From Promethearchaeota archaeon (lineage in GTDB: Archaea; Asgardarchaeota; Lokiarchaeia; Sigynarchaeales; SOKP01), in assembly GCA_019057775.1 (NCBI GenBank), contig JAHLWT010000278.1, positions 1-20,554 of the forward strand: a DNA stretch of 20,554 nucleotides. The letters run 5' to 3'. Position numbers and translations under genes: made by a program. This document shows positions 1,538-19,134 of this stretch, piece by piece (position 1 is the stretch's first letter; the number at the start of each line of letters is the position of its first letter). A model generated the notes under the pieces. That model was not told the origin of the DNA and searched no databases. It worked only from the letters and a program-made list of their open reading frames with translations.

Positions 1538-2737
1538 TTGAAGAACCTTATTTTATTAACCATAGATACCTTAAGAAAAGATATTTTAGGGTGTTATGGA
1601 AATAAAGATGAACTAACCCCCTTTATAGATTCTTTGCAGAATAAATGTATTAAATTTACAAACGCTCAATCTACCGGTCCTTATACTCAAGCTTCCTTTC
1701 CTGGCATTCTTACATCTTCTTATTATCTTGAATATGGTAGGCAAAAAAAGTGCTCACCAAAAAGAACTCTCATTTCAGAAGTCCTAAAAAAATCTGAAAT
1801 TACTACTGCCGCTTTTCATTCCAATCCTTACCTTTGTGGTTATTTTGGTTGGGATAGAGGTTGGGATGTTTTTTATGATTCTATGCAAGATGAAGTAAGT
1901 GATAAAATTCCTTATATTAGGGGAGATGGTATTAATGATAAAGTGGATCAATGGCTTTCCTCGTATATTGAAAATGATAATTATCGTCCCTTCTTTTTAT
2001 GGACACATTATATGGATGTACACGAGCCTTATATTCCTACAAAAGAATATTTAAACAAGGTAGATCCTTCAATTAATCTTTCTGAAGATGAAATGTTGGA
2101 TTTGTTCAAAAATATAATACTTAAGAGAGATGTATCAAATAAAAAAACAGTAAAACTTTTAAAAAAACTTTACGATGCCGGAGTGTGTGAAACTGATAAT
2201 TATGTTAAAGAATTTTTTAACATATTGGAAAAATATAATGTTTTAAAGGATACAGTTGTAATTATCACTACTGACCATGGAGATGAATTTGGTGAACATA
2301 ATGGTCTTTCTCATGATGGCAAAATGTATTCTGAACTTATTAGTTCCCCTTTACTTATTTACAGGTATAATCGTACCCAGGGTGAGGTGTGTGATAACCT
2401 TGTTAGCAATATTGATATCCCTCCTACCATACTTTATCTCTTTGGTCTTGAATCATTTGAGAAATTTAGAGGGCATTCCATGCTTCCTTTAAAGAGTTAT
2501 CCTCAAAATGGAGTCTTCGGAGAAGCGATTGGTAAAACTAGTAATCATGAAAAGGAAACTGATAAACCCATATACTTCTATCAGGAAAATGACCTAAAAA
2601 TAATTTACAGAGAAGCCAATCAGAGTTGGGAAATGTATAACCTTAGCGAAGATTCCCAAGAGTTAAATAACTTGATCAAAACCTCTACTAAGAGTGAATA
2701 TATGAAGAAAAAATTAATGACTTATATAAATAGATAG
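1538..2737 (+). CDS. Alkaline-phosphatase-superfamily (sulfatase-fold) hydrolase, Thr-nucleophile type
   Basis: This is a 399-aa protein starting at TTG 1538, six bases after AAAGGAG at 1525-1531. Metal-site features of the superfamily are present: LLTIDTLRKD with Asp10 near the N terminus, and TTDHGDEFGEH with Asp246, His247 and His254, followed by SHDGKMY with His259. At the nucleophile position the segment GPYTQASFPGILTS aligns with the WTxPSHASLLTG form, which makes Thr50 the likely nucleophile. There is no C/S-x-P-x-R motif for formylglycine conversion, so a classical sulfatase is unlikely; phosphatase, phosphodiesterase or phosphonate-type hydrolase activity is more plausible. There is no signal peptide, so it should be cytoplasmic. 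It is clearly more distant from the hydrolases at 3637 and 9316 than they are from each other. It is followed 40 bp later by the CysD/CysH-like gene, probably in one operon. The substrate is unknown. Confidence 0.85.
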   Translation: MKNLILLTIDTLRKDILGCYGNKDELTPFIDSLQNKCIKFTNAQSTGPYTQASFPGILTSSYYLEYGRQKKCSPKRTLISEVLKKSEITTAAFHSNPYLCGYFGWDRGWDVFYDSMQDEVSDKIPYIRGDGINDKVDQWLSSYIENDNYRPFFLWTHYMDVHEPYIPTKEYLNKVDPSINLSEDEMLDLFKNIILKRDVSNKKTVKLLKKLYDAGVCETDNYVKEFFNILEKYNVLKDTVVIITTDHGDEFGEHNGLSHDGKMYSELISSPLLIYRYNRTQGEVCDNLVSNIDIPPTILYLFGLESFEKFRGHSMLPLKSYPQNGVFGEAIGKTSNHEKETDKPIYFYQENDLKIIYREANQSWEMYNLSEDSQELNNLIKTSTKSEYMKKKLMTYINR

Positions 2738-2777: not shown

Positions 2778-3605
2778 ATGAACGAAGAAGTAAAGAAAAA
2801 GAACAAGGAATTAATAGAAAAATCAAAGCAAGTAGTGCGTGAAACCTTTGAGAAATTTGATCCGGCAAAATGTGCTATTACCTGGACCGGCGGAAAAGAT
2901 AGCACCACTAATCTTTGGATTATTCGTCAAGTATGTATAGAGGAAAACATTGATCTCCCTCAAGTTATTACCATCGATGAAGGTGATGCTTTTCCGGAAA
3001 TAACCGATTTCCTAGTTAGCATTTCTAAAAAATGGCACATAGACCTGAATTGGTTATGTAATTTTAATATGCTTAGGTGTTGTCAAAGTCACTTAGGGAA
3101 TGATATCCAGGTAAAAGATTTGGATGAACGTAATCAAGCTGAACTCAAGCGTATTGAATTTGAATTTAAATCATTTCCCTTTGAAGCAGAATCATATGCT
3201 GGTAATCATCTAATGAAGACAGTGGTGCTTAATAAATTTATCGAACAGAGCAAAACTGAATTGTTATTTATGGCCTTACGAAGAGATGAACAAGCAGCAA
3301 GGAAAGAAGATGAATACTTTACTCATCATGAAGCTGGGCATCTGATGCCGGAACATACCAGGGTTTCTCCCATCTTGCATTTTACCGAAAGAGATATCTG
3401 GGATAATACCCATTTACATAATCTTCCTTACTGTCCCCTCTATAAGATAGGCTATCGTTCTTTAGGAGCAAGAAGTAGTTCTAACCCAGGAGAAGTCGGT
3501 ATCCCTGCCTGGGAACAGGATTTAGAAAATATACCAGAGAGAGCTGGTAGAAGACAAGACAAAGAAAAGGCAATGGAAAGATTAAGGAAGTTGGGGTATA
3601 TGTAA
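2778..3605 (+). CDS. PP-loop adenylyltransferase/reductase family protein (CysD/CysH-like)
   Basis: This is a 275-aa protein. TGGKDS at 37-42 is the PP-loop that binds ATP or the adenylyl part of APS/PAPS. RRDEQAARKE from residue 168 and the ending from 254 (ERAGRRQDKEKA, then a GYM terminus) match the CysD small subunit of heteromeric ATP sulfurylase better than CysH. The ECGLH cysteine motif needed for thioredoxin-dependent PAPS reduction is absent. The stretch PLYKIGYRSLGARSSS is nonetheless reminiscent of CysH. Cys94, Cys101 and Cys102 are present mid-protein. No CysN GTPase partner is in the window, and a homomeric Sat is encoded at 13800, so this is an orphan whose reaction cannot be read from sequence. 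Automated annotation would probably say PAPS reductase family. The gene sits between two hydrolases in the same direction, with AAAAGGAG upstream. Confidence 0.8.
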   Translation: MNEEVKKKNKELIEKSKQVVRETFEKFDPAKCAITWTGGKDSTTNLWIIRQVCIEENIDLPQVITIDEGDAFPEITDFLVSISKKWHIDLNWLCNFNMLRCCQSHLGNDIQVKDLDERNQAELKRIEFEFKSFPFEAESYAGNHLMKTVVLNKFIEQSKTELLFMALRRDEQAARKEDEYFTHHEAGHLMPEHTRVSPILHFTERDIWDNTHLHNLPYCPLYKIGYRSLGARSSSNPGEVGIPAWEQDLENIPERAGRRQDKEKAMERLRKLGYM

Positions 3606-3636: not shown

Positions 3637-4899
3637 ATGTCCAAGAGAAATATCATTATCATCAGTTTAGACGAGGTTCGTCCTGACCATTTGAGTTGTT
3701 ATGACTACCAAAAGATAAATACTCCATCCATTGATCAGGTAGCCAAGGAAGGAGTAAAATTTGAAACCTGTATTTCATCAGCTGATTTTACTCCAATTGC
3801 TATGGGGTCGGTAATTACGGGAAAATATCCCAATAAGCATGGAATGAGAAACCCCTACTCTTATTTAATAGGACCTTCTATTGCTACTATCTTGAAAAAA
3901 TATGGTTATAAAACTGCTGGTTTTGTAGGTAATGGTCTATTATCAAAAAAACATGGCTTTTCCGAAGGTTTTGATTTTTGGAATGAAACTTCTAGGGAGA
4001 CTAGCTGGTTAGAGATTCAATATCCTGGAGCTGAGAGTGAGGAAATGTTCTATGAAGGAAACTACTGGGTAGAAGAATTTTTCAAATGGTTAAAAGAGAA
4101 CTACCAAGAAAAGTTCTTTATCTGGGGACATCTTTATGAGACTCACGAAGGTTCAGCATACTCACTCATTAAAAAAGGATTAATAAAAGAAGGAGAGCTT
4201 TCGGAATTTAATTATTACGATGCCAAAATAAAAATGGCTGACGAAAAATTAATAGGTAGACTATTAGACACTTTAAATAAGTTATCTATAGCTGATAATA
4301 CAACTCTGGTGGTAATGAGTGACCATGGAACTAATCTTGGCGAACATCCTGTAAAAGATATTCCTTGGCGAAAAAAGGGAACCAGATACCCACAACATAC
4401 TACTATGTATGACCATGACCTAAAAGTGACTATGATTATCAAGGGTGAAGGTTTGCCTAAAGGAAAAGTCATTAAAAATATGGTGCGTTCTATTGATTTA
4501 GTTCCCACTATATTGGATTTAATTGGTTTACCTGCCAAAGAATATGATTTTGATGGTCAAAGTATGTTGTCGGTAATTAATAAAAATGAGACAAGGGACG
4601 AAGTATATTCTGAAGATTTATTTGAATCAAGAGGCAAGGGAGCACTACAATCAGTAAGAACCAAAGATTTTAAATTTATACGTAATTTAACTTTAGGGGA
4701 AGAAGAATGTTATGATTTAAATAGTGATCCCCAAGAGCAAAATAATCTGTTTCAGAAAACCGATAAAGAAAAATTAATCACCCTAAGGAAAAAGATGAAT
4801 GTTTTTCTTAAAACCGAAGTTGCACCTAAAAAAGAATTTTCTCAAAAAGAAAAGGAAGTCATTAATCAAAGACTGAGAGCGCTGGGATATATAGAATAA
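3637..4899 (+). CDS. Alkaline-phosphatase-superfamily (sulfatase-fold) hydrolase, cassette 1
   Basis: This is a 420-aa protein with no signal peptide. Asp12 in IIIISLDEVRPDHLS and Asp229-His230 with His237 (MSDHGTNLGEH) plus His254/His260 (YPQHTTMYDHD) supply the expected metal ligands. The nucleophile region SADFTPIAMGSVITGKYPNK puts Thr52 where formylglycine sulfatases have Cys or Ser, and no CxPxR motif is present. It is therefore sulfatase-like in fold but probably a Thr-nucleophile phosphatase or phosphodiesterase acting in the cytoplasm. It is the first gene of a hydrolase-tctC-tctB-tctA cassette and a close paralogue of the protein at 9316. The first 179 nt after the start codon are about 97% identical between the two genes, while the rest is visibly more divergent, which points to local gene conversion. 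An imported anion processed by this enzyme is a reasonable guess. Confidence 0.87.
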   Translation: MSKRNIIIISLDEVRPDHLSCYDYQKINTPSIDQVAKEGVKFETCISSADFTPIAMGSVITGKYPNKHGMRNPYSYLIGPSIATILKKYGYKTAGFVGNGLLSKKHGFSEGFDFWNETSRETSWLEIQYPGAESEEMFYEGNYWVEEFFKWLKENYQEKFFIWGHLYETHEGSAYSLIKKGLIKEGELSEFNYYDAKIKMADEKLIGRLLDTLNKLSIADNTTLVVMSDHGTNLGEHPVKDIPWRKKGTRYPQHTTMYDHDLKVTMIIKGEGLPKGKVIKNMVRSIDLVPTILDLIGLPAKEYDFDGQSMLSVINKNETRDEVYSEDLFESRGKGALQSVRTKDFKFIRNLTLGEEECYDLNSDPQEQNNLFQKTDKEKLITLRKKMNVFLKTEVAPKKEFSQKEKEVINQRLRALGYIE

Positions 4900-4920
4900 C
4901 ACTGCTCCCAAATCATATTA

Positions 4921-4991
4921 AGGAGGTGATGTTAATTATTACAAGATTATAGAATCTTAAGTTAATTTTAATATTTTTAGGAGGTAACAAA
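4921..4991 (+). promoter_or_regulatory. Leader before tctC with orphan Shine-Dalgarno site and 7-codon mini-ORF
   Basis: AGGAGGTGAT at 4921-4930 is a full-length Shine-Dalgarno match far upstream of tctC. An ATG at 4929 opens a 7-codon frame ending in TAG at 4950-4952, although the spacing from the AGGAGG is only two bases. A 6-bp inverted repeat AAGATT/AATCTT lies at 4943-4958. The true tctC site AGGAGG follows at 4980-4985. The same arrangement recurs before the second tctC at 10629-10700. Confidence 0.45.
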
Positions 4992-5963
4992 ATGAGAAGA
5001 TTTATAGTAGTGTTAACGATAATTTCTCTTATGTTGTTAGTAGGAAGCTTGGCAATCGGGGCGCAGGAAGAGTATCCTACAAAACCGATAAAGGGTATAA
5101 TTTCTTTATCAGCAGGAGGAACAACAGATATTGTTGCTCGTACGCTTGCTCCCTATATGGAAGAGTATTTAGGGCAGCCTTTAGTATTAATAAATACACC
5201 AGGTGCAAACGGGACAATAGCAGTTGCAGATGTTGCAAAAAGGGATCCTGATGGCTATACCTTTGGATGGTGTAATTTACCCACACTAGTAATTCATAGT
5301 CAGTTAAGAGAATTACCTTATGATGCGAAAGAACTTGGATATGTAGCTTCTCCAATGCCCTATGAATACATGGTTCTTGTTAGAAATGATGCGCCTTGGA
5401 AAACTTGGGAAGATTTTATTAAATATGCCAAAGAGCACCCTCGTATGATAGTATATGGTACCCCGGGTCTTGGTTCAACCAATCATTTAGCCTTGGAATA
5501 CGTAGCCATGAAAGAGGGTATTGAATGGAACCCAATACCATTCAAGGGAAATCCAGAATCAATTGCAGCATTACTTGGAGGACATGTTGATGCTTGTAAT
5601 ACTTCTACTACAGCAGCAGTTTCAGCACTTCAATCAGGAGAAGTCAGACCACTTATAGTGTTGAGTAATAAAAGATTAAATCTTTGTCCGGATGTACCTA
5701 CAATCATGGAAAAGGGATATGATTTTTATCAATATTCTTGCATGGGGGCAATATTTCCACCTGGCACACCAGAGAATATAAGAACTAAACTTGAAGAAGC
5801 AATCAAATATGCCTGTAGTAAACAAGAAGTTAAAGAGAAGGCTGAAAAAAGCTTGTTTGTAACTATTGACTTTAAACCTGGTGCTGAATATCGAGAATTA
5901 GCAGAGCGGTATTATAAGGTTTGGGGTGATGTTTTAAGACAAGTAGGAATATTGAAAGATTAG
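4992..5963 (+). CDS. tctC: Tripartite tricarboxylate transporter substrate-binding protein (Bug/TctC), cassette 1
   Basis: This is a 323-aa periplasmic receptor for a Tct-type secondary transporter. The signal peptide has RR at 2-3, a hydrophobic core at 4-21 and probable cleavage after Ala24. The mature protein opens with YPTKPI and carries the Bug-family phosphate-loop-like stretch AGGTTDIVARTLAP and LGQPLVLINTPGANGT, then DPDGYTFG. Such receptors bind carboxylates and related organic anions; the ligand cannot be told from sequence. The 91-bp gap to the hydrolase upstream holds a leader with an orphan Shine-Dalgarno site. A strong terminator follows the gene, so it is probably made in excess over the membrane subunits. 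The mature part differs greatly from the second receptor at 10701 although the signal peptides are similar. Confidence 0.93.
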   Translation: MRRFIVVLTIISLMLLVGSLAIGAQEEYPTKPIKGIISLSAGGTTDIVARTLAPYMEEYLGQPLVLINTPGANGTIAVADVAKRDPDGYTFGWCNLPTLVIHSQLRELPYDAKELGYVASPMPYEYMVLVRNDAPWKTWEDFIKYAKEHPRMIVYGTPGLGSTNHLALEYVAMKEGIEWNPIPFKGNPESIAALLGGHVDACNTSTTAAVSALQSGEVRPLIVLSNKRLNLCPDVPTIMEKGYDFYQYSCMGAIFPPGTPENIRTKLEEAIKYACSKQEVKEKAEKSLFVTIDFKPGAEYRELAERYYKVWGDVLRQVGILKD

Positions 5964-5996
5964 TGAAAAGTTATAAAAAATGAGCGATGTTTTATA

Positions 5997-6050
5997 ATTG
6001 TTAGGGAAGCATGCTTTTTATAGTATTGCTTCCCTAACAATAGTTTTTTT
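5997..6050 (+). terminator. Hairpin terminator between tctC and tctB, cassette 1
   Basis: A perfect 15-bp stem (5997-6011 with 6027-6041) and 15-nt loop are followed by a run of seven T at 6044-6050. This is a textbook intrinsic terminator inside the transporter operon. It probably lets some transcripts stop after the binding protein. The second cassette has a counterpart at 11684-11735. Confidence 0.9.
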
Positions 6051-6142
6051 GTGGAATTAGATACCTTGAAACGAGGTTAAGTTTTAACGGATTAAAGAAA
6101 AAAATTTACTAGAAAAAATATAAGGAAGTTAGGATAATATAA

Positions 6143-6646
6143 TTGAAAATTGGAAGAGAAACAAAAATTGCCTCAGGTTTAATAGTTTTTTGTTTATTTA
6201 ATTATTTTTACTTAATACCTTCTCAGGTTATCAATCAAGGATCGGTCCCAACATATCCATTTATCGTAAATACTTTAATTTTGCTTTCTTCAGTTGGATA
6301 TTTTTTCCAAAGCATTTTTCAAAATACTATTACTACTAAAGAAGCAGATAGTCAAAAAAATAAAGATGCGCAGAAAAAACAGAAAAACAACGCACAGAGG
6401 GCAATTGTTATAATAATTCTTATAGGAATTTGGGTATTAGCGCTTGATTATATTGGTTTTCTGTTATCAACAATAATATTTCTAGCAGGAAGTATTATTA
6501 CATGTGGTTCACGTAATTATACTAAAGTAGTTATAATATCAATTTTATTCCCACTATTCATGTATTTTCTTTTTAGGGGAGTATTAAAAACAACTTTACC
6601 GGAAGGTTTTTTGGAGAATATATTAGAAAAAATAATTTTTGGCTAG
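6143..6646 (+). CDS. tctB: Tripartite tricarboxylate transporter small membrane subunit TctB, cassette 1
   Basis: This is a 167-aa integral membrane protein with four hydrophobic segments (about 10-28, 40-60, 85-125 as a long pair, 128-150) and a polar, Lys/Gln-rich loop near 68-84. Length and topology fit TctB, whose sequence is poorly conserved. Identity rests mainly on position directly before tctA. The start is TTG 6143 with AGGA at 6131-6134. The gene lies after the tctC terminator, so it depends on read-through or its own promoter. It should work with TctA in sodium- or proton-driven uptake. Confidence 0.82.
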   Translation: MKIGRETKIASGLIVFCLFNYFYLIPSQVINQGSVPTYPFIVNTLILLSSVGYFFQSIFQNTITTKEADSQKNKDAQKKQKNNAQRAIVIIILIGIWVLALDYIGFLLSTIIFLAGSIITCGSRNYTKVVIISILFPLFMYFLFRGVLKTTLPEGFLENILEKIIFG

Positions 6647-6676
6647 TAATTTAGAGTAAATTTTGGAGACTTCATA

Positions 6677-8206
6677 ATGAGTGATTTTATTCCTAATTTA
6701 ATTAGTGGGATTAATTATGCTTTTAATATTACAAATATTTTAGGGATTTTAGGAGGGTATTTTATAGGAGTAATTGTTGGCGCTACACCAGGACTTACCT
6801 CAGTGATGGCTATTGTTTTATTGCTCCCCTTTACTTATACTTTAAGCCCTCTATTTGCAATAGCGGGTTTAATGGGTTGTTATAAAGGAGGCGTCTATGG
6901 TGGTTCTATTACTGCAATATTATTTAATATTCCTGGAACCCCAATGGCAGCAGCAACTTCTTTTGATGGTTACCCCATGAAATTGAAAGGCGAAGGATTA
7001 AGAGCTTTAGAAATGGCGCTTTTTGCATCTGTTATAGGAGGCACTCTTAGTAATTTATTATTACTATTTACCGCACCGCCTTTAGCTCGCATAGCTTTGA
7101 AATTTGGTCCTGCCGAAGTTGCAGCATTAATATTTTTTTCATTAACTGTTGTTACTGGCCTTATGGGCGATACCCCTTTAGAAATATGGAAAGGTTTAGT
7201 TTCATTAGGAGGAGGACTATCTTTTGCTATGATTGGACTAGATATGATGACTACAACAAGAAGATATGGATTTGGAATAGTTGAATTAGATAGTGGAATA
7301 AATTTTGTTACTGCCATAGTTGGTTTATTGGCTTTATCAGAAGTATTGATCCAAGTTGAGAAAATAATAAATTTAAATTTATCTAATCTAAAAGACGAAA
7401 TACAATTATTTAAGAAGCCTACATGGAAATCTAGAAAAAATGATATTAAAATATGTGCTATAGATATTTTAAGATCGTCACTTGTGGGCTCATTTATAGG
7501 AGCCCTTCCAGGTCTTGGCGCTACCACTGCTGCTTTTATGAGTTATGGTGAAGCAAAAAGAGCCTCTAAACACCCGGAAACTTTTGGTAAAGGTGAAATA
7601 AAAGGCGTAGCTGCTCCCGAAGCAGGTAACAATGCAGTATGTGCTGCAAGCTTAATACCTTTGGTAACTTTAGGTATTCCCGGAAGCATAGTAGCTGCTG
7701 CTTTATTTGGTGCTTTTATGATACAAGGAATGATGCCGGGCCCTATGCTTATGAAAACACATCCTGAAGTACTTTATGGATTATTTTTTTTGATGATACT
7801 AACTGATATATTGGGAGGAGTTTTAGTGGCGTATCCATTTATACACGTAGCTACACGTTTACTTAGAAAAATAGATTATACAATACTTTTCCCAATCATT
7901 ATAGTGCTTTGTGGTATAGGGACATATGGAATAAATTTTAGTATATTTGACATTAAAGTTATGTTAATTTTAGGGGTACTTGGATATATAATGAGAAAAA
8001 CTGGTTTTACTGTTCCTGTTTTTTTATTAGCTTTTATTTTAGGCCCCTTTCTTGAGCGTAATCTAAGGACTGCACTTCTTATATCTCGAGGTAGTTTATT
8101 CATATTTTTAAAAAGTCCAATTGCAATGATTCTATTAAGTTTGGGTGTAGTTTCACTTATATTGTCATTTAGGAAGAAATTAAAAAAGAAAAAAGAGGTC
8201 ATATAA
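6677..8206 (+). CDS. tctA: Tripartite tricarboxylate transporter large permease TctA, cassette 1
   Basis: This is a 509-aa polytopic membrane protein of normal TctA length. The two family signature halves are visible: VGATPGLTSVMAIVLLLPFT from residue 34, and IGALPGLGATTAAFMSYGEA with KGVAAPEAGNNAV and LVTLGIPGS in the second half. It forms the transport path, receiving substrate from the TctC protein at 4992. It starts 30 bp after tctB, with GGAG at 6665-6668. It ends with a basic cytoplasmic tail (RKKLKKKKEVI). Its closest relative in the window is the TctA at 12197, at clearly moderate identity, so the two cassettes are old or have diverged in specificity. Confidence 0.95.
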   Translation: MSDFIPNLISGINYAFNITNILGILGGYFIGVIVGATPGLTSVMAIVLLLPFTYTLSPLFAIAGLMGCYKGGVYGGSITAILFNIPGTPMAAATSFDGYPMKLKGEGLRALEMALFASVIGGTLSNLLLLFTAPPLARIALKFGPAEVAALIFFSLTVVTGLMGDTPLEIWKGLVSLGGGLSFAMIGLDMMTTTRRYGFGIVELDSGINFVTAIVGLLALSEVLIQVEKIINLNLSNLKDEIQLFKKPTWKSRKNDIKICAIDILRSSLVGSFIGALPGLGATTAAFMSYGEAKRASKHPETFGKGEIKGVAAPEAGNNAVCAASLIPLVTLGIPGSIVAAALFGAFMIQGMMPGPMLMKTHPEVLYGLFFLMILTDILGGVLVAYPFIHVATRLLRKIDYTILFPIIIVLCGIGTYGINFSIFDIKVMLILGVLGYIMRKTGFTVPVFLLAFILGPFLERNLRTALLISRGSLFIFLKSPIAMILLSLGVVSLILSFRKKLKKKKEVI

Positions 8207-8493
8207 AAAGATATTTTATTTCCTTTTAATATAAATAGCTTAGAAATCTACAAGGAAAGTAATTAAAATTAGAGATGTATGATTTAAATAAAAATCTACT
8301 ATAAGAAATAAAGGATATTGTTAATTGCTTTCTAGAACCAAAGAGCCATAGAAGAAACTAAGATCAAAAATAGAAAAAGTAAGGCAAAAATAAAATAAGA
8401 TGGAAAAAGAATAGGGGATAATCAGCTAAGTTAATAATAATTCAAATAAGTTAGGATATGTGTAAAATTATATATAGAATAGAGGTGCGAGAT
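8207..8493. other. AT-rich intergenic spacer before the comA-like gene
   Basis: The 287 bp between tctA and the comA-like gene hold no ORF, no repeat and no clear terminator. This is the largest gap between 3606 and 13799. It could hold a separate promoter for the comA-like gene, but I see no convincing -35/-10 pair. Confidence 0.4.
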
Positions 8494-9270
8494 ATGTATA
8501 ACCGTCTTTTTTCAAATATTCCTTTTAAAAGGCGAAGGGTTAAACCAAGAGAATCGGGTCTCACTGTTATTATTGATCGAAAATTAGGTGTAAAGGCTCA
8601 AGAGGACTTTTTGAAATTAGCCGCAAATTTTTTAGATATAGCTAAGATTATGGTTGGTGTTTCAGCCTTAATTAAATCTCAAACCTTAAAAAAGAAAATT
8701 GACTTGTATCACCAACACAAAGTTTTAGCCTTTCCCGGAGGACAGTTTTTAGAATATGCAATATCCAAAGACAAAGTGCGAGAATATTTTTCAGATATAA
8801 TTAAAGCTGGATTTATATTAGTGGAAGTATCAGATAATCTAATAGATATTTCCCCTGATAGAAAGTGTGACCTTATCAAGATGGCTACTCAAGAATATGG
8901 TTTAAAAGTCTTGGGGGAGACCGGGAGTAAAAAAGTATCCTCGGATATAAAACTATTAATTAAAGACATTAAGGATTGTCTTAATTGTGGTGCTTGGAAG
9001 GTAATGTTTGAAGCTGCTGAATTATTTGAAAATGGTATATTCAAAAGTAATTTAATCAAGGCAATTTTAAAAGAGGTAGATATTAAGAATATCATTTTTG
9101 AGCTTCCCGGTCCCTGGATTCCCAAGATCACAGTTTCTGATATCTATTCTCTAATGAGTTGGTTAATAGAAAATTTGGGTACAGAGGTTAATATTGCCAA
9201 TGTTGACCCTGATGATATTCTTTGTCTGGAAGCAGAAAGAACTAATTTAGGTGTCCATATGAAATTTTAA
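8494..9270 (+). CDS. comA: Phosphosulfolactate synthase (ComA/YitD family) homologue
   Basis: This is a 258-aa protein. ComA adds sulfite to phosphoenolpyruvate to give phosphosulfolactate, the first step of coenzyme M synthesis in methanogens and of sulfolactate synthesis in spore-forming bacilli. Family landmarks appear in order: KPRESG (17-22), PGGQFLEYAI (81-90), VEVSD (110-114), GETGSKK (141-147), IIFELPGP, and the ending VNIANVDPDDILCLEAERTN. The sequence is divergent: the VKFGWGTS segment of bacillar homologues reads AKIMVGVS here, so activity should not be taken for granted. I chose ATG 8494, eight bases or so after GAGGTG at 8482-8487; ATG 8458 is in frame but has a poor site. It lies between the two hydrolase-transporter cassettes and is the strongest pointer to sulfonate chemistry. 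No ComB phosphatase is seen; a neighbouring hydrolase might fill that role (inference). Confidence 0.82.
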   Translation: MYNRLFSNIPFKRRRVKPRESGLTVIIDRKLGVKAQEDFLKLAANFLDIAKIMVGVSALIKSQTLKKKIDLYHQHKVLAFPGGQFLEYAISKDKVREYFSDIIKAGFILVEVSDNLIDISPDRKCDLIKMATQEYGLKVLGETGSKKVSSDIKLLIKDIKDCLNCGAWKVMFEAAELFENGIFKSNLIKAILKEVDIKNIIFELPGPWIPKITVSDIYSLMSWLIENLGTEVNIANVDPDDILCLEAERTNLGVHMKF

Positions 9271-9315
9271 TATTATATCATATAAAGGAATTATAAATAA
9301 AAAGGAGAAATAAAT

Positions 9316-10578
9316 ATGGCCAAGAGAAAGATCATTATCATTAGTTTAGACGAGGTTCGTCCTGACCATTTGAGTTGTTATGGCTACCAAAAGATAAATA
9401 CTCCAGCCATTGATCAGGTAGCCAAGGAAGGAGTAAAATTTGAAACCTGTATTTCATCAGCTGATTTTACTCCAATTGCTATGGGATCGGTAATTACTGC
9501 TAAATATCCCAATAAACACGGTGTTAGAGATGCTTATTCTTATTTAACTGGACCAACAGTTGCTCAAATTTTAAGAGAAAATGGTTATAAAACTGCTGGC
9601 TTTGTTGGGAATGGACTTTTAGCTAAAAGACATGGTTTTGCAGAAGGTTTTGATTTTTGGGATGAGGCTTCCAAAGATACTAGTTGGCTAGAAGTGCAAT
9701 ATCCTAATTCTGGAAATGATGAAATTATTTATGAAGGAAACTATTGGGTAGAAGAATTCTTTAAATGGCTAAAAGAAAATTACAAGGAAAATTTCTTTAT
9801 CTGGGGGCACCTTTATGAAACCCATGAAGGTTCAGAACATTCACTCCTTAAGAAGGGATTAATAAAAGAAGGTGAATTAGCAGAGTTTAATTACTATGAT
9901 GCTAAAATTAAAATGGCTGATGAAAAATTAATAAATAGATTAATCGTTACTTTAAAAGAATTAAGTATATACAAAAATACTACTTTAGTAGTAATGAGTG
10001 ATCATGGAACTAATCTGGGTGAACATGCAGCAAAAGATATTCCATGGCGAGAAAAGGGAACAAGATATCCTCAACATACTACTATGTATGACCATGACCT
10101 TAAAGTAGCCATGATTATAAAAGGAGAAGGTTTGCCTGAAAGAAAGAAAATTGAAGGTATGGTACGTTCCATTGATTTGGTGCCTACCTTATTAGATTTA
10201 GCGGGCATCCCTAAAGAAGGGTATGATTTTGATGGTTTAAGTATGTTACCGGTAATTGAAAAAGATGAAGCAAGAGAAGAGGTTTATTCTGAAGATCTAT
10301 TTGAACCAAGAGGTGAAGGGGCCTTACAGTCAATTAGGACTGAAGAATTTAAATTTATGCGCAATTTGACTTTAAATATCGAAGAATATTATAATTTACT
10401 TAAAGACCCTCAAGAAAAGAATAATATTTTAGACCAACAGGATAAAGAGACTATCATTAATTCAAGAAAGAAACTAAATGCTTATCTTAAAACCAAGGTC
10501 ACTACCGGCAAGAAATTTTCTCAAAAAGAAAAAGAAATTATTAACCGAAGATTAAGAGCACTGGGATATATAGAATAA
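9316..10578 (+). CDS. Alkaline-phosphatase-superfamily (sulfatase-fold) hydrolase, cassette 2
   Basis: This is a 420-aa protein, the same length as its paralogue at 3637 and very similar throughout (for example DEVRPDHLSC, SDHGTNLGEH, TTMYDHDLKV and the C-terminal RRLRALGYIE). The probable metal ligands Asp12, Asp229, His230 and His237 are kept, as is Thr52 in the nucleophile segment SADFTPIAMGSVIT. The formylglycine motif is again absent. There is no signal peptide. It is preceded by AAAAGGAG and begins 45 bp after the comA-like gene, so the two may be cotranscribed. It heads the second hydrolase-tctC-tctB-tctA set. Conservation of this enzyme across both sets, while the receptors diverged, suggests the same chemistry on different imported substrates. 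The substrate is unknown. Confidence 0.87.
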   Translation: MAKRKIIIISLDEVRPDHLSCYGYQKINTPAIDQVAKEGVKFETCISSADFTPIAMGSVITAKYPNKHGVRDAYSYLTGPTVAQILRENGYKTAGFVGNGLLAKRHGFAEGFDFWDEASKDTSWLEVQYPNSGNDEIIYEGNYWVEEFFKWLKENYKENFFIWGHLYETHEGSEHSLLKKGLIKEGELAEFNYYDAKIKMADEKLINRLIVTLKELSIYKNTTLVVMSDHGTNLGEHAAKDIPWREKGTRYPQHTTMYDHDLKVAMIIKGEGLPERKKIEGMVRSIDLVPTLLDLAGIPKEGYDFDGLSMLPVIEKDEAREEVYSEDLFEPRGEGALQSIRTEEFKFMRNLTLNIEEYYNLLKDPQEKNNILDQQDKETIINSRKKLNAYLKTKVTTGKKFSQKEKEIINRRLRALGYIE

Positions 10579-10620
10579 GATTACTTTTTTAGAGATACTG
10601 AGGACTACTACAAAGTAAAT

Positions 10621-10700
10621 TAAGGAGAAGGAGGTGGTGCTAAATACATTAAAAGTATAGAGTATTGAGTAAATCTTAATATTATTAGGAGGTAAAAAAA
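10621..10700 (+). promoter_or_regulatory. Leader before second tctC with orphan Shine-Dalgarno site and 7-codon mini-ORF
   Basis: AAGGAGGTG near 10627-10635 precedes a GTG-started 7-codon frame (GTG CTA AAT ACA TTA AAA GTA TAG) beginning at 10636. The true site AGGAGG at 10688-10693 then precedes tctC. Length, order and part of the sequence match the leader at 4921-4991, so the layout was conserved after cassette duplication. Confidence 0.4.
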
Positions 10701-11669
10701 ATGAGAAAATTTGTAGTTATGTTAGTAATAATTTCCCTGGTGTTGTCAATAGGAAGCTTGACTATTATAGCAGAGGAGAAGTATCCAACTAAGCCAATAA
10801 CTTTTAACGTAACCTCTGGAATTGGAGGAATGACTGATGCAAGTTCACGGATACTTGCGGATAAGTTGAAAAAAGTAGTCGGGCAACCAATAGCTGTGGT
10901 AAATAAACCAGGTGGAGGTGGACTGGTTGGACTAATGACTTTCATTGCCAAAGAAGCAGATCCTTATGTCTTAATTGTTACCGTAACTGCACATCTTAAT
11001 GCAGCACCTTTCTTAGAAGCAGAACCTATTGAAACAGATAATTTAATCTTTGTGGGAAGCTACATGCCCCAAGAGCGAATCCTCTTTGCTCAGATGGATG
11101 CTCCCTACAAAACATGGGAAGAATTTGTTGCTTATGTTAAAGAACATCCCGGAGAAGTGAGTGTAGGGAGTGGAAATTGTCAGTGGACACTTGAGGTTAT
11201 GAAATCAATAGCGGTAATTGAAGGATTGGACATGAATTATGTTCGCTTTAAGAGTGGAGCAGAAGGTTCATCAGCTATTCTTGGGCGTCATATAGATGTA
11301 TGTGAAACTGGTGTGGGAACTCCTGCATATCAAGCTGCAAGAGCAGGCGAATTGAGGATAATACTTAATTGTGGTTCAGGAAGCGTTCCTCATTTTCCTG
11401 AGGTACCAAATGTTTTAGATAAAGGTTATCCCTTTGCATCAAGAATTGAGTATGGAATTGTAATGCATGCTGATGTTCCAGAATCAGTCCGGCAATTTTG
11501 GGAAGATGCCTTAAGGGGCGCAATGGAAGATCCGGTTATACTTGAGAAGTTTTTAGCATTAGGTCTGGTACCACGTTTTCTCCCTGGAGCACTCTGGAAA
11601 GAAGTCGCCATTAGAGATATTGAAATGGCCTACGAGCTTCTGGAGTATAATAAGGCTCTTGAACAGTAA
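10701..11669 (+). CDS. tctC: Tripartite tricarboxylate transporter substrate-binding protein (Bug/TctC), cassette 2
   Basis: This is a 322-aa receptor. The signal peptide (RK at 2-3, hydrophobic 4-22, likely cleavage after Ala24) closely resembles that of the cassette 1 receptor. The mature start YPTKPI is the same, and VGQPIAVVNKPGGGGLVG is the family ligand-loop region. Beyond that the mature sequence differs widely, including the ligand-facing SGIGGMTDASSRILAD in place of SAGGTTDIVARTLAP. A different anion specificity is therefore likely. The gene is followed by a perfect-stem terminator, as in cassette 1. It is probably exported by Sec and soluble in the periplasm or envelope space, which would imply a two-membrane or functionally equivalent cell envelope. 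Confidence 0.92.
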   Translation: MRKFVVMLVIISLVLSIGSLTIIAEEKYPTKPITFNVTSGIGGMTDASSRILADKLKKVVGQPIAVVNKPGGGGLVGLMTFIAKEADPYVLIVTVTAHLNAAPFLEAEPIETDNLIFVGSYMPQERILFAQMDAPYKTWEEFVAYVKEHPGEVSVGSGNCQWTLEVMKSIAVIEGLDMNYVRFKSGAEGSSAILGRHIDVCETGVGTPAYQAARAGELRIILNCGSGSVPHFPEVPNVLDKGYPFASRIEYGIVMHADVPESVRQFWEDALRGAMEDPVILEKFLALGLVPRFLPGALWKEVAIRDIEMAYELLEYNKALEQ

Positions 11670-11683
11670 TGATTTAATAAAGT

Positions 11684-11735
11684 AAACAGTAAAAGAGGAA
11701 AGTAGTATAATTTCCTCTTTTACTGTTTTGTTTTT
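11684..11735 (+). terminator. Hairpin terminator between tctC and tctB, cassette 2
   Basis: A perfect 18-bp stem (11684-11701 with 11711-11728) has a 9-nt loop and is followed by TTTTG and TTTTT (11726-11735). It sits at the same place as the terminator in cassette 1, but stem and loop sequences are unrelated. Position is conserved while sequence is not, which argues for selection on partial termination after tctC. Confidence 0.88.
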
Positions 11736-11745
11736 GGGAAGCAAA

Positions 11746-12186
11746 ATGAATAAAGATCAAAAATTTGGGATAATTCTATTAATTTTCTGTCTTATCTTGT
11801 GGTTTTTTATAATACCCACACAAATTTCAAGTACGAAAGATGCAGTTTACCCGAGATTTGTAAATGTGTGGATAGCCATTTGTGGAATTTTGCTAATAAT
11901 AAAGAGTTGGAAAAGTACCGAGAAAATAATCTTATATGAATCGAAGGATGAGAAGGGGATAATTCGAGTTGTTGCGACAGTATTAATATTTCTAATTTAT
12001 ATCTTTATGATTGATTTTTTAGGATTTTTTATTTCGAGTTTTATATTCATAATAATCCTTATGTTAAGTTTTGGAGTGAGACAATGGATAAAACTTATTT
12101 CAGTGCCCATTATAATATTATTATTTTTGTATTTTTTAATTAAAAAAATATTATTTTTTCCTTTACCTGAAGGAATATTTTTCTAA
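11746..12186 (+). CDS. tctB: Tripartite tricarboxylate transporter small membrane subunit TctB, cassette 2
   Basis: This is a 146-aa membrane protein from ATG 11746, which has GGGAA at 11736-11740. The frame also opens at TTG 11728, but that codon lies in the terminator stem and T-run, so I rejected it. Hydrophobic segments occur near residues 7-25, 36-55, 75-110 (long) and 112-135, matching the topology of the TctB at 6143. The ending LPEGIFF resembles TLPEGFLE of the first copy. Identity rests on topology, size and position between tctC and tctA. Confidence 0.82.
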   Translation: MNKDQKFGIILLIFCLILWFFIIPTQISSTKDAVYPRFVNVWIAICGILLIIKSWKSTEKIILYESKDEKGIIRVVATVLIFLIYIFMIDFLGFFISSFIFIIILMLSFGVRQWIKLISVPIIILLFLYFLIKKILFFPLPEGIFF

Positions 12187-12196
12187 AGGAGAAATT

Positions 12197-13699
12197 ATGT
12201 TTGAAAATATAGCAGCTGGGATGCATATGGTTTTACAATTAGATAATATTTTAGCAGCTCTGTTTGGTGTAACAACAGGAATAATAGTAGGAGCTATTCC
12301 GGGATTTACAGATACTATGGCTATGTGTTTACTAATCCCATTTACTCTCTATCTACGTCCCATAGCTGCGATTGCCATGCTAATGGGTCTTTCTAAAGGA
12401 GGCAATTTTGGTGGATCTATTCCAGCTATTTTATTTAACGTACCAGGCACTCCCCAAGCAGCGGTTACTGCGCTCGATGGGTATCCCTTGTCAAAACAAG
12501 GTAAAAGCGGTAAGGCTTTGAAAATAGCGCTTTATGCCTCTACTATAGCTGATACTTTAAGTGATTTTATTCTATTGTTCTTAGCCGCACCAGTAGCTAT
12601 GATTGCCTTGAAAATAGGGCCACCAGAATATGCTATGATAATTCTTTTTTCTTTAGCAGTTATTGGTTCAGTAGGAAGTGAAAATCTCTTAAAAGGAATG
12701 ATTGCCACAGGATTTGGCTTACTGTTTGCGGTAGTTGGACTTGACCCACTTTCTGCTGGTCGTCGTTTCTGTTTTGGTTCGATAGAATTAACTGCTGGGT
12801 TTGCCTTAGTTCCTATGGTCATTGGTCTTTTAATCGTCTCAGAGACTTTCCGGCAAATAGAAATAGGGATAGCAGATAAGATTTTAAAGAAAGATATTTT
12901 AAATAAGTTACCAAAAACTGTTGATCCCAGAAATCACCAGGTTAGTTTTACTGAATTCAAGAACTGTTTACCATCAATCCTTGGTGGATTAGGAATAGGT
13001 TCAGCAATAGGTATTATCCCCGGAATTGGAACCACCGTGGCTTCTTATTTAAGCTACACCTATACTAAAAAATCATCTAAACATCCTGAACGTTTTGGGA
13101 AAGGTGCTTTGGAGGGAGTATCAGCTGCTGAGGCAGGAAATAATGCAGTTGTGGGACCAAATCTAATTCCCTTGATTACTCTGGGGATACCAGGAAATCT
13201 GGCTGCAGCTCTTATTTTAGGGGCTTTTATGATTCAAGGTTTAGTCCCGGGTCCCTTATTTATGCAGCAACATGCTCCTATGCTTTATGCGTTATTTATT
13301 GTATTAATTATAAGTAACATATTTACGTTTGCTGTAGGAAGTATCTTCTTGAAATTTGCTAGAAAATTAGTAAATGTGCCTAAGCCAATATTATATCCAG
13401 CGATTATGGTTTTTGGTGTTATTGGGTCCTATGTATTCAGGAACAGTTTGTTTGATGTTAAAATGATGCTTTTTTTAGGGGTGGTTGGTTATATTTTGAC
13501 AAAATTTGAAATCCCTCTTCCTCCCATATTGGTGGCTTTTATTCTCGGAGAGATCCTTGAGAGAAAAATACGACAATCACTTCTCATATCTCGAGGAAGT
13601 CTGTCCATCTTCTTCACTCGACCCATTGCGCTTACCTTTTTGATTTTAACTATAGTTGCCATAATAATATTGGGTACCAGGTTTAAAAGAAAAAAATAA
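12197..13699 (+). CDS. tctA: Tripartite tricarboxylate transporter large permease TctA, cassette 2
   Basis: This is a 500-aa permease with about a dozen hydrophobic segments. Family signatures are VGAIPGFTDTMAMCLLIPFT from residue 31, GNFGGSIPAILFNVPGTPQA, and IGIIPGIGTTVASYLSYTYT with GVSAAEAGNNAVVG and ITLGIPGN in the second half. The start at ATG 12197 follows AAAGGAG at 12186-12192 and nearly abuts tctB, so the two are translationally close. It pairs with the receptor at 10701. It ends in a basic tail (RFKRKK). It is the last gene of cassette 2; Sat begins 100 bp later with no terminator visible in between, so read-through into sat is possible. Confidence 0.95.
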   Translation: MFENIAAGMHMVLQLDNILAALFGVTTGIIVGAIPGFTDTMAMCLLIPFTLYLRPIAAIAMLMGLSKGGNFGGSIPAILFNVPGTPQAAVTALDGYPLSKQGKSGKALKIALYASTIADTLSDFILLFLAAPVAMIALKIGPPEYAMIILFSLAVIGSVGSENLLKGMIATGFGLLFAVVGLDPLSAGRRFCFGSIELTAGFALVPMVIGLLIVSETFRQIEIGIADKILKKDILNKLPKTVDPRNHQVSFTEFKNCLPSILGGLGIGSAIGIIPGIGTTVASYLSYTYTKKSSKHPERFGKGALEGVSAAEAGNNAVVGPNLIPLITLGIPGNLAAALILGAFMIQGLVPGPLFMQQHAPMLYALFIVLIISNIFTFAVGSIFLKFARKLVNVPKPILYPAIMVFGVIGSYVFRNSLFDVKMMLFLGVVGYILTKFEIPLPPILVAFILGEILERKIRQSLLISRGSLSIFFTRPIALTFLILTIVAIIILGTRFKRKK

Positions 13700-13799
13700 A
13701 ATAACCAGATTGAATTATTTTTCATTAAAAGTCTAAACTAATTTAATATTATCCACTTCTATTTCTTTTGCGTTATCAAGTTAAGAAAGGAAACTAAAA

Positions 13800-15077
13800 A
13801 TGAAAAATATAGGACATGGTGGTAAAGAGATCGTAGAGAGGATATTGCCACCTATAGAATCAAAGAAACGAATTAGAGAGTTAAAACGAATAGCAGTCAC
13901 TGACCGAGTAGCCAGGGAATGCATTGATCTTGCTTATGGTTTTTTTACCCCCTTACAAGGTTTTATGGGAAAAGGTGATGTTGATTCAGTATGCGAAAAA
14001 ATGACAATAATGAATGGAACACTTTGGCCCATTCCTATTGTATTTGATATCACCAATAAGGAAATTAAAGAAAAAGGGATTAAAAGGACAGATACTATCC
14101 TGCTTACTTATCATGGCCATGCTTTGGCGATATTGGAGATAGAAGAAATTTTTAATTACCATAAATTAAATCTTGAACAGGCTGTATTAGGCACAACTGA
14201 TTTAGAACATCCGGGAGTAAAGATGTACAATACTTTAAAAGATACTTTTATTAGCGGTAAGGTTACCTTAGTAAATGAGATAAAGTTTAATCCTCCCTTT
14301 GATAAATTTTGGTATACGCCAAAACAATTAAGAAAAATATCCACCGAAAAAGGTTGGGAAAGAATAGTTGCTCATCAAACCAGAAATGTTCCCCATACTG
14401 GTCATGAATGGCTAATGAAAGGAGCCTGGTTTTCTGCTAATGGAGACCTTCCGGTAGAAAAAATAAAAACAGGAATATTAGTCAGTTGTATAATTGGACC
14501 AAAACGCCTTGGCGATTATATAGACGAAGCTATCCTTTTAGGTCATCAAAAATTACATGATGCTAAATATTTTAGAGATGATATTCATATGGTATCTTTT
14601 GTACTGTGGGATATGCGTTATGCTGGACCCAAGGAAGCCCTTCTTCACGCTATTATCAGGAGTAATCTAGGGTGTACCCATCATATGTTTGGCAGAGACC
14701 ATGCCGGGGTAGGTAGTTATTATGACCCCTATGATGCCCACCGAATATTTGATCAAATCCCTAAAGATAGCCTAAATATAAAACCAGTTCGTATTTTAGA
14801 ATGGTGGTATTGCCCTATATGTGGGGAGGTAACTTATTCTGGTTTATGTGGACATGATAAAAAAAGACAGGGATTTAGCGGCACTATGATTAGGAGTATG
14901 ATACAGGATAAGGTAAAACCAACCAAACTCATCATGAGACCAGAAGTATTTGATATGGTACTGGAAAGTGCTGATAAATATGGTTTTGGTTCTCCTTTTT
15001 GTACCGAAGAATATCTGAACAAGAGACAAGCAGTATTTGAAATTCCTAAATTACAAAATAGAAAGATAATAGCATAA
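13800..15077 (+). CDS. sat: Sulfate adenylyltransferase (ATP sulfurylase, homomeric Sat)
   Basis: This is a 425-aa enzyme that converts ATP and sulfate to APS and pyrophosphate, or runs in reverse. The nucleotide and sulfate motif QTRNVPHTGHE starts at Gln193 and GRDHAGVG at 298-305. Cys338, Cys341, Cys350 and nearby His352 form a CxxCx8C zinc-site pattern like that of bacterial and thermophile Sat proteins. There is no fused APS-kinase domain. The length is normal for a prokaryotic homomeric Sat. Assimilatory or sulfation use fits the nearby cysC and cysQ; no APS reductase (aprAB) is in the window. The 3' third of the gene is duplicated at 16906-17217. Confidence 0.95.
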   Translation: MKNIGHGGKEIVERILPPIESKKRIRELKRIAVTDRVARECIDLAYGFFTPLQGFMGKGDVDSVCEKMTIMNGTLWPIPIVFDITNKEIKEKGIKRTDTILLTYHGHALAILEIEEIFNYHKLNLEQAVLGTTDLEHPGVKMYNTLKDTFISGKVTLVNEIKFNPPFDKFWYTPKQLRKISTEKGWERIVAHQTRNVPHTGHEWLMKGAWFSANGDLPVEKIKTGILVSCIIGPKRLGDYIDEAILLGHQKLHDAKYFRDDIHMVSFVLWDMRYAGPKEALLHAIIRSNLGCTHHMFGRDHAGVGSYYDPYDAHRIFDQIPKDSLNIKPVRILEWWYCPICGEVTYSGLCGHDKKRQGFSGTMIRSMIQDKVKPTKLIMRPEVFDMVLESADKYGFGSPFCTEEYLNKRQAVFEIPKLQNRKIIA

Positions 15078-15282: not shown

Positions 15283-15582
15283 ATGGCAGAAAATTATCCT
15301 ATTAATATATGGATTAATGAGGAAAGGAATGAAAAACTATGCCAAGTTGAAATTGATAATTTAGCTAAAGATGTATTAGCAGGTATGAAGGTCCTCCAAT
15401 TGCAATGTACCGAGAAACAAAAGGATAAAATTTTAAAGCTCTATCCGATGGCTAAATTCGATAGTTCTACTACCAAAAGCATTGAGCTACTTCCAGCTGA
15501 AGTGAAAGAAAAATTATTCAATTTAATCATAGAACAAAAGAGCTTAGATATTATAAAAGAGTTTTTAAAAAGTATAAAATAA
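15283..15582 (+). CDS. Hypothetical protein (99 aa), downstream of sat
   Basis: I do not recognise this protein. It has a good ribosome binding site (GGGAG at 15271-15275) and starts at ATG 15283. It is polar and probably mixed beta/alpha: a short N-terminal strand (INIWINEE), a middle helix (EIDNLAKDVLAGMKVLQL), then Lys-rich helices toward the C terminus. Two cysteines (Cys20 and Cys42) are present. There is no signal peptide or membrane segment. It lies between sat and a permease fragment, and the whole interval that carries it (15091-15589) is missing from the second, partial copy of the sat-permease junction at 17244-17251. It may have a sulfur-related role by association only. Confidence 0.65.
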   Translation: MAENYPINIWINEERNEKLCQVEIDNLAKDVLAGMKVLQLQCTEKQKDKILKLYPMAKFDSSTTKSIELLPAEVKEKLFNLIIEQKSLDIIKEFLKSIK

Positions 15583-15943: not shown

Positions 15944-16687
15944 ATGATGAATCAATTTATTATTGGATTAATATTTTTCTTTACAAGTTTGGTATACTCA
16001 ACATTTGGTTTTGGATATGCAATGATTTCTATCCCACTCTTATCTTTAGTTCTAGCATTAAAAACCGCAATTCCTCTTTCTCTTTTAATGGGCTTAGGAA
16101 TAAGTTGTTATTTAGTAATTTCCTCTTATAAAGATATAAAACCAAAACAGATCTTATATTTATTAATTGGAAGTGCAATGGGCGTTCCTTTTGGTGTATT
16201 TATACTTAAAAATACTTCGCCAGAGATATTAGAAATTGCAATTAATGCAGTAATAATCACTAGTGCAATAATACTTTTTTTGAAACAAGGTAAAAATATA
16301 ATTTCTGTTAATACAAAACTAATTACTATTCTAGTTGGTTTTTTAAGTGGTTTTTTAGGGGGTAGCACAGGTATTTCTGGTCCACCCGTAATTTTGTATG
16401 GTTTAAACCAAAAATGGGAGAAAAAAACATTTAGGGGTAATTTGCTTACTTATTTTGCTATATGGGGTATTTATACAAATATTGGTTACTTTCTCATAGG
16501 TTTGGTTAATTTTGCGACATTCTTTAAGTATATTATTCCAAGTTCAATTGGGCTAATTTTTGGAGCTATTTCAGGAAAAGTACTATGTAAAATAATTCCC
16601 CAAAAAAAATATTATAAAATTTGTTGGATTTTAATTATTGCTTTAGCTTTTTTTGGAATAGTTAAGGCAATTATCAAAACAATATAA
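15944..16687 (+). CDS. TauE/SafE-family membrane permease (247 aa)
   Basis: The protein is 247 aa with about eight hydrophobic segments. The twin family motifs are visible: FGFGYAMISIPLLSLVL near residue 21 and SGFLGGSTGISGPPVILYGL near 133. TauE/SafE proteins are proposed to export sulfite, sulfoacetate or related anions, but many members have other or unknown substrates. The start is ATG 15944 (a second ATG follows at once). No Shine-Dalgarno site is visible; a TATAAT at 15932-15937 sits so close that the transcript may be leaderless. It is not closely similar to the permease at 17325. A terminator lies upstream and duplicated fragments lie on both sides. Confidence 0.85.
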   Translation: MMNQFIIGLIFFFTSLVYSTFGFGYAMISIPLLSLVLALKTAIPLSLLMGLGISCYLVISSYKDIKPKQILYLLIGSAMGVPFGVFILKNTSPEILEIAINAVIITSAIILFLKQGKNIISVNTKLITILVGFLSGFLGGSTGISGPPVILYGLNQKWEKKTFRGNLLTYFAIWGIYTNIGYFLIGLVNFATFFKYIIPSSIGLIFGAISGKVLCKIIPQKKYYKICWILIIALAFFGIVKAIIKTI

Positions 16688-16905: not shown

Positions 16906-17217
16906 ATATTTGACTAGATTCCTAAAAATAGCCTAAATATAAAACCAGTTCGTATTTTAGAGTGGTGGTATTGCCCTATATGTGGGGAGGTAACTTATTC
17001 CGGTCTATGTGGACATATCAATAAAAAACAGACTTTTAGCGGCACTATGATTAGGAGTATAATACAGGATAAGGTAAAACCAACCAGACTTATCATGAGA
17101 CCAGAAGTATTCGATATGGTAATGGATAGTGCTGATAAATATGGTTTTGGTTTCCCATTTTGCACCAAAGAATATCTAAGCAAGAGACAAGCAGTGTTTG
17201 AAATTCCTAAATTATAA
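16906..17217 (+). pseudogene. sat: Truncated sat (3' fragment of sulfate adenylyltransferase)
   Basis: The DNA from about 16906 to 17251 matches 14745-15090 at a constant offset of 2161 with no gaps. It reads as the C-terminal part of Sat (SLNIKPVRILEWWYCPICGE to QAVFEIPKL) and stops at TAA 17215-17217, eight residues earlier than the intact gene because CAA became TAA. The N-terminal two-thirds, including both nucleotide motifs, are missing and there is no start signal. The zinc-site cysteines remain. Some changes alter amino acids (for example DKKRQGF to INKKQTF). Confidence 0.92.
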
Positions 17218-17324
17218 AATAAAAAGATAATATCATAATCCTTAATTTATAAAAAAGCTACTTTGTATAACTTTTAGATTCCTTTTCTTTAATTAGATTT
17301 ATCAAGGAGCAAAAGAAATCTTCA

Positions 17325-18531: not shown

Positions 18532-18534
18532 AGG

Positions 18535-18959: not shown

Positions 18960-18998
18960 ACTGCCCTATATAATGTACTAACTATTTAAAAGGGCCTG

Positions 18999-19092: not shown

Positions 19093-19134
19093 AATAAATA
19101 CAGTATAGACTAAATAAACATTTAAAAGGGCCTG

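Follow-up and report, generated by a model that had tools for sequence, protein, structure and literature searches.

The stretch of DNA analysed here, called the window throughout, spans positions 1 to 20,554 of contig JAHLWT010000278.1 of a Promethearchaeota archaeon (assembly GCA_019057775.1); the analysis itself took its source to be an uncultured bacterium, probably an anaerobe. It carries a run of plus-strand genes in which a sulfatase-fold protein (S0) and a CysD-like PP-loop protein are followed by two hydrolase-transporter cassettes and an ATP sulfurylase (Sat). The gene order is a 23S-rRNA-intervening-sequence-type protein, a winged helix-turn-helix regulator, S0, the CysD-like protein, a first hydrolase (H1), TctC-TctB-TctA and a ComA-like protein; these are followed by a second hydrolase (H2), a second TctC-TctB-TctA, Sat, a DUF6955 protein, two TauE-family permeases, a GIY-YIG protein, a split CysC and CysQ. 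The tripartite tricarboxylate transporter (TTT) set of TctC, TctB and TctA is complete and occurs twice, and the Pfam scores of the Tct, ComA-like and PF00884 proteins are well above the cut-offs. The core and cassette genes are the following:

1538..2737, + strand: S0, a sulfatase-fold protein whose nucleophile position is Thr (GPYTQASFPGILTS), core gene (PF00884, 132 bits).
2778..3605, + strand: CysD-like PP-loop protein, predicted adenylyltransferase, core gene (PF01507, 88.1 bits).
3637..4899, + strand: H1, Thr-type sulfatase-fold hydrolase or transferase of cassette 1 (PF00884, 130 bits).
4992..5963, + strand: TctC-1, substrate-binding protein of the TTT transporter (PF03401, 192 bits).
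6143..6646, + strand: TctB-1, start codon uncertain (PF07331, 74 bits).
6677..8206, + strand: TctA-1 (PF01970, 454 bits).
8494..9270, + strand: ComA-like protein from a group that lacks the E-[AG]-R-E-S-G motif (PF02679, 203.3 bits, cut-off 25.2); the start was set at 8494 rather than at the reading-frame start 8458, most close relatives being 258 amino acids long.
9316..10578, + strand: H2, Thr-type sulfatase-fold hydrolase or transferase of cassette 2 (PF00884, 121 bits, and the hydrolase tree).
10701..11669, + strand: TctC-2, substrate-binding protein (PF03401, 94 bits).
11728..12186, + strand: TctB-2, start at 11728 or 11746 (PF07331, 64 bits).
12197..13699, + strand: TctA-2 (PF01970, 456 bits).
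13800..15077, + strand: Sat, ATP sulfurylase, core gene (PF01747, 251 bits).
15283..15582, + strand: DUF6955 small protein, companion of Sat (PF22271, 106 bits).

A first-pass annotation of this DNA had described a hydrolase-TctC-TctB-TctA order repeated in the same direction around a ComA homologue, with sat, cysC, cysQ and a CysD/CysH-like gene nearby. Order, strand and coordinates were right, and profile matches place all four of these neighbours, cysC in split form, within the window. The cluster of S0 with the CysD-like gene, and its recurrence elsewhere, is well supported. We compared 11 loci that carry the CysD-like gene (the window, L001, L002, L003, L007, L017, L018, L019, L020, L024 and L025), and in 10 of them S0 adjoins it. 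Sat is present in seven of the 11, DUF6955 and the hydrolase H in five each, TTT genes in four, and ComA in the window only. Pfam scans of chosen proteins further identified arylsulfotransferase-family genes in five loci (L002, L018, L019, L024 and L025, with H alongside in L002), PF01663 genes in three (L002, L018 and L019) and TauE in three (the window, L020 and L024). These last three counts are lower bounds, because only chosen reading frames were scanned and L002, L007, L018, L020 and L024 are short contigs, several loci stopping at contig edges. The Sat proteins of L003 and L025 belong to another branch (33-34% identity), yet each is a full PF01747 protein. The importers also vary, with an ATP-binding cassette (ABC) transporter in L019 and a tripartite ATP-independent periplasmic (TRAP) transporter in L025, as if one core were served by different import modules, TTT among them.

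Among species genomes the CysD-like family has a sparse and patchy distribution. At E 1e-50, four phyla gave 1 positive genome among 400 (a sample), 2 among 50, 4 among 17 and 1 among 185, and one order gave 3 among 84, each count including the genome from which the search started. This is the case despite 2660 matching metagenome and genome protein clusters at E 1e-20. The hydrolase, at E 1e-80, was detected once among the 50 genomes of the phylum to which the atribacterial locus belongs and twice among the 17 of the aerophobete phylum. A scan of genome contigs gave eight loci, two with distant sulfatase-fold proteins only and six with the hydrolase family itself (46-76% identity), the latter in genomes titled Aerophobetes, Dehalococcoidia, Acetomicrobium, Falkowbacteria, Spirochaetota and Azospirillum.

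H1, H2 and S0 all match the PF00884 fold family (121-132 bits). In the 25 aligned H proteins D12, T52, D229 and H230 are invariant, as are P53, A55 and M56 next to the threonine, and S0 reads T-Q-[AS]-S-F in the rows whose nucleophile stretch was compared. The signature of Cys/Ser-type (S1) sulfatases is C/S-x-P-x-R, and neither H nor S0 has it. By eye, no signal peptide is apparent in H or S0, so that the substrate is likely handled inside the cell after import. Known organosulfate utilisation loci with Cys/Ser-type sulfatases likewise couple a PF00884 enzyme to an importer; the window differs from them in having Thr instead of Cys/Ser, enzymes that appear cytoplasmic, and Sat, DUF6955 and a CysD-like gene. 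It resembles other TctCBA systems in holding all three subunits, here twice, and differs in that their partner is a Thr-type sulfatase-fold enzyme.

The CysD-like protein has the ATP-type PP-loop TGGKDST in all 20 aligned members, which includes the GGKDS of the CysD PP-loop. In the same 20 members the C-terminal catalytic Cys motif and the Fe-S cysteines of CysH-type reductases are absent. Together, these features make the protein an unlikely source of sulfite, and a CysH-type reductase was rejected on the missing cysteines. Its scores are below the cut-offs of both TIGR00434 (46.3 against 165.1 bits) and TIGR02039 (45.9 against 396.6 bits). The best match in sequence and in fold is FAD synthase, an enzyme that adenylylates FMN, followed by FMN adenylyltransferase, CysD and APS/PAPS reductases, enzymes of adenylyl sulfate (APS) and 3'-phosphoadenylyl sulfate (PAPS). 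With CysD it shares the PP-loop and, by eye, the C-terminus (ER.GR..D...ME..R..GY), a piece that scores 0.3 bits; the difference is that no CysN gene was seen in the window.

Sat exceeds the NF003166 and TIGR00339 cut-offs and can be aligned to a solved ATP sulfurylase. Its usual partners were sought in 11 related genomes, of which 10 carry the CysD-like gene and one (G066) carries H only, the genome of the window not being among them. Sulfite reductase (PF01077) was found over the cut-off in none of the 11, with a sub-threshold match in G003 (25.6 of 27 bits), while the control was positive in 11 of 14 named genomes. APS kinase (PF01583) reached the cut-off in three genomes and E 0.001 in four, the only full-length match being that of G001 and the others spanning about 50 residues. 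AprB (PF12139) matched none of the 11, but the control genomes were silent too; the profile does match an AprB in L043 (NZ_CP061967.1, 10001-21844). As far as tested, these genomes appear to do without the classical partners of Sat, and the cluster does not seem to serve sulfate reduction or assimilation. L043 has the order Sat-DUF6955-AprB-AprA, both Apr proteins scoring above their NCBIfam cut-offs, and this single case suggests that DUF6955 accompanies Sat where APS is the currency. The record is labelled as a Klebsiella pneumoniae plasmid, is unannotated, and is probably mislabelled or a contaminant contig. The sat-aprBA operon of sulfate reducers that it represents shares with the window a Sat adjoining DUF6955 (65% and 59% identical to those of the window), whereas here S0 and the CysD-like gene stand in place of aprBA. 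Sulfate reducers with this operon differ likewise from the 11 related genomes, in which no sulfite reductase exceeded the cut-off.

The two cassettes are not sister copies. Between them the hydrolases are 77% identical at the protein level, TctC 35%, TctB 26% and TctA 47%. TctA-1 is 73%, 59% and 53% identical to the TctA of L001, L017 and L003 against 47% to TctA-2, and TctC-1 is 76%, 55% and 52% identical to the TctC of the same loci against 35% to TctC-2, placing the first transporter nearer to those of other phyla than to its neighbour. The hydrolase tree (n=90) holds both window copies, five loci and 83 of the 120 listed homologues outside the window's own set; it omits 35 listed hydrolases and the loci L005 and L006. 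H1 and H2 are in separate supported sets of this tree (20 rows, 96/84; 14 rows, 98/95), each of which also contains metagenome proteins from elsewhere, and the hydrolase of L017 groups with H1. A recent tandem duplication of the whole cassette was rejected on the tree and the TctA and TctC identities. The linkage itself is not peculiar to the window, as hydrolase and TctCBA genes are also joined in an aerophobete (L001), an acetomicrobium (L003) and a member of the atribacterial phylum (L017); two of these three, and the window, have ATP sulfurylase. A longest-contig figure of 16314 is common to three hydrolases and two ComA-like proteins, so that multi-cassette arrangements probably recur. 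In L001 the aerophobete cluster is followed downstream (9083-15018) by a pair of lactate-racemase-family genes and by genes for a 2-hydroxyacid dehydrogenase, an HpcH/HpaI aldolase and an RraA-like protein, a hint that the product may be a hydroxy acid.

We think that the cluster handles imported anionic esters in the cytoplasm via adenylyl sulfate, possibly with ATP formation. We tentatively suggest, as a possible reading, that S0 and the CysD-like protein, frequently accompanied by Sat and DUF6955, form an APS module joined to import-and-processing cassettes, leading from an imported ester to APS and on to ATP. According to this model, a TTT transporter would import an organic anion bearing a sulfate, or related, ester. 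The cytoplasmic Thr-type sulfatase-fold enzymes would remove the ester group and hand it on, and the group would reach AMP, forming APS. Sat would then turn APS into ATP and sulfate, pyrophosphate and AMP being provided or consumed by the CysD-like enzyme, and the TauE-family permeases may export the oxyanion. We infer the sulfate ester as substrate, a transfer and not a hydrolysis by the Thr enzymes, the direction of Sat towards ATP, and the part given to the CysD-like protein. The model is consistent with the arylsulfotransferase-family genes and with the importers linked to the core. It is also consistent with L020, where, alone among the 11 loci, DUF6955 is separated from the CysD-like gene by an adenylate kinase and from TauE by a HIT protein, both of these belonging to families of AMP/ADP-type enzymes. 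In a more specific form, which we consider doubtful, uncultured fermenters would import sulfate esters such as aryl sulfates, Thr-type transferases would move the sulfuryl group to AMP, and Sat would make ATP. That this would amount to substrate-level phosphorylation without sulfur redox chemistry is equally doubtful.

Several points weigh against this model. Thr-nucleophile enzymes known in the sulfatase-fold superfamily act on phosphate esters. Simple alkyl sulfate esters have a much lower transfer potential than APS, so that APS could be formed from activated donors alone, for instance aryl sulfates. We know of no member with a known activity. The 20 kb of L017 that were read contain no Sat, and the split cysC and cysQ of the window fit a PAPS route. 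The absences in the 11 related genomes are soft, since four of these are titled as metagenome-assembled genomes and completeness was unreported. More distant relatives of the CysD-like protein (34-45% identity) lie on seven plasmid records, of which five neighbourhoods were read. The plasmid matches H5, H7, H10 and H14-H20 lie outside the neighbourhoods that were read. Sat is listed in none of the five, the gene tables being incomplete, and sulfatase-family genes occur in one (Halopiger), suggesting that the wider family is not tied to an APS module. In two of the five, glycan-building genes are near, which fits sulfation and not breakdown. On the Halopiger plasmid (L035) the CysD-like gene sits amid several sulfatase-family and glycosyltransferase genes, with nucleoside diphosphate (NDP)-sugar genes near; in L033 epimerase and acyltransferase genes lie about 8 kb from the relative.

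These plasmids lead to the first alternative, in which Sat makes APS, S0 and H act as sulfotransferases, directly or via the CysD-like protein, to decorate a glycan or small metabolite, and the importers bring the acceptor. We regard it as unlikely. In its favour, besides the Halopiger setting, a sulfotransferase gene lies near the CysD-like relative on a Desulfolutivibrio sulfodismutans plasmid, relatives of S0 occur on seven haloarchaeal plasmids (six of the seven annotated as sulfatase), cysC and cysQ are in the window, and a sulfate ester is the downhill product of APS. The linked importers (TTT in four loci, ABC in L019, TRAP in L025) suggest uptake instead, and glycan genes are close in only the two neighbourhoods. 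Moreover, PAPS sulfotransferases would lack their donor in the 10 of 11 related genomes without a full-length APS kinase.

It is rather unlikely that the cluster performs phosphorus chemistry, with H and S0 as Thr-type phosphodiesterases or phosphotransferases, the CysD-like protein adenylylating phosphate or a phosphonate, and phospho-organic anions as the imported substrates. The threonine at the nucleophile position, the missing Cys/Ser signature, the FAD synthase match and the PF01663 genes of three loci would all agree with such a function, but Sat, DUF6955 and TauE in the cluster point to sulfate, as do the arylsulfotransferase-family genes of five loci. An ordinary scavenging role, in which H hydrolyses imported organosulfates and Sat, CysC, a CysH-like enzyme and CysQ assimilate the sulfate as a sulfur source, would explain why one window contains sat, cysC and cysQ together with a PF01507 gene. 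Sulfatases have indeed been reported for marine sediment bacteria, Dehalococcoidia included (PMC6129605). We find this role improbable, as the related genomes gave no sulfite reductase over the cut-off and a full-length APS kinase in just one of 11, the CysD-like members have no CysH-type cysteine motif, and the cysC of the window is split.

The first-pass annotation had read the locus as one where the ComA homologue fixes sulfite onto phosphoenolpyruvate. In that model, which we consider improbable, the enzyme would add sulfite to phosphoenolpyruvate, or in reverse remove it from an imported sulfonate, and the TTT transporters would move sulfonates. The PF02679 match favours it, as do the TauE-family genes after sat and a Natrinema relative whose neighbours are TauE, flavin-dependent oxidoreductases and a TRAP transporter. 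Nevertheless, the window protein scores 168.6 bits against TIGR03849, the model for archaeal ComA (cut-off 280). It has E-A-A-E-L-F where the four solved PF02679 sequences, and Xanthobacter and Mycolicibacterium plasmid homologues (L042 and L041), have E-[AG]-R-E-S-G, a motif absent from all 25 aligned ComA-like rows and presumably needed for ComA activity. With phosphosulfolactate synthase it shares the PF02679 family, and it is 31% identical to the Xanthobacter plasmid homologue. The coenzyme M enzymes of Xanthobacter have been studied in vitro (PMC11507031), and L042 would hold the one described there. PF02679 was found in none of the seven genomes of loci L001-L007 and in none of 50 genomes of the atribacterial phylum, where only G007 (also among L001-L007) and G054 carry cluster genes. 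These searches covered eight cluster-bearing genomes, with G059, G061, G066, G068, G671 and G699 not searched, and the portions read of the 10 remaining CysD-like loci gave no ComA match. The expected co-occurrence of ComA, hydrolase and tctCBA held for hydrolase and TctCBA in L001, L003 and L017 and not for ComA; likewise, of the earlier interpretation as a whole, the recurring linkage stands and the fixation of sulfite is weak. In favour of the earlier model, a link between ComA and the hydrolase is suggested by metagenomes, with identical contig size as a proxy for the same contig. Among the rows compared (ComA, 45 of 120 listed and 361 found; hydrolases, 120 of 335; CysD-like, 120 of 2660), five of 14 distinct ComA contig sizes of at least 7 kb equal a hydrolase size (16314, 19706, 14596, 7109 and 39875; mean chance 0.04). 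Hydrolase and CysD-like contigs have five sizes in common (mean chance 0.11), and ComA and CysD-like contigs none. The ComA-like gene would be a lineage accessory of the module. Plasmid genes of Natrinema, Arthrobacter and Chelativorans (L038, L039, L040) named 'phosphosulfolactate synthase' also have no R-E-S-G motif, and the clusters around them look catabolic, containing importers, oxidoreductases or TauE. There is thus a group of PF02679 proteins that bear this name without the motif of the solved enzymes. A known defence system was considered and rejected.

Downstream of DUF6955 the window contains the following features:

15944..16687, + strand: TauE/SafE-family permease 1 (PF01925, 107 bits).
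16906..17252, + strand: remnant of a second sat gene (347 nt, 90% identity to the 3' part of sat).
17325..18221, + strand: TauE/SafE-family permease 2 (PF01925, 162 bits).
19236..19879, + strand: cysC (APS kinase) in two frames, 19236-19400 and 19397-19879 (PF01583, 191 bits for the second piece).
19897..20554, + strand: cysQ, truncated by the window end (TIGR01331, 277 bits).

Between the two TauE genes (16906-17367) the sat remnant is accompanied by a 124-nt repeat (96% identity) of the stretch 3' of DUF6955, from which it appears that this stretch was probably duplicated once and one sat then lost. The frame break of cysC near 19397 may be a real frameshift or an assembly error. Around the GIY-YIG gene and 5' of cysC (18440-19230), ATTTAACAGGG and CCCTGTTAAAT ends alternate, and two stretches of 61 and 64 nt carry both. 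We take these ends to be reminiscent of integron attC cores, as a lead and no more.

An ATP sulfurylase in a genome is readily annotated as a sign of sulfate reduction or assimilation. Here Sat and DUF6955 are joined to a CysD-like protein and Thr-type sulfatase-fold enzymes in a recurring module, whose genomes gave no sulfite reductase over the cut-off as far as searched, which suggests that adenylyl sulfate has another role in uncultured bacteria. Should ATP indeed be formed from sulfate esters, this would be a new energy-yielding reaction. The route from imported ester to ATP is one possibility, and it may represent a new way to live on sulfated organic molecules.

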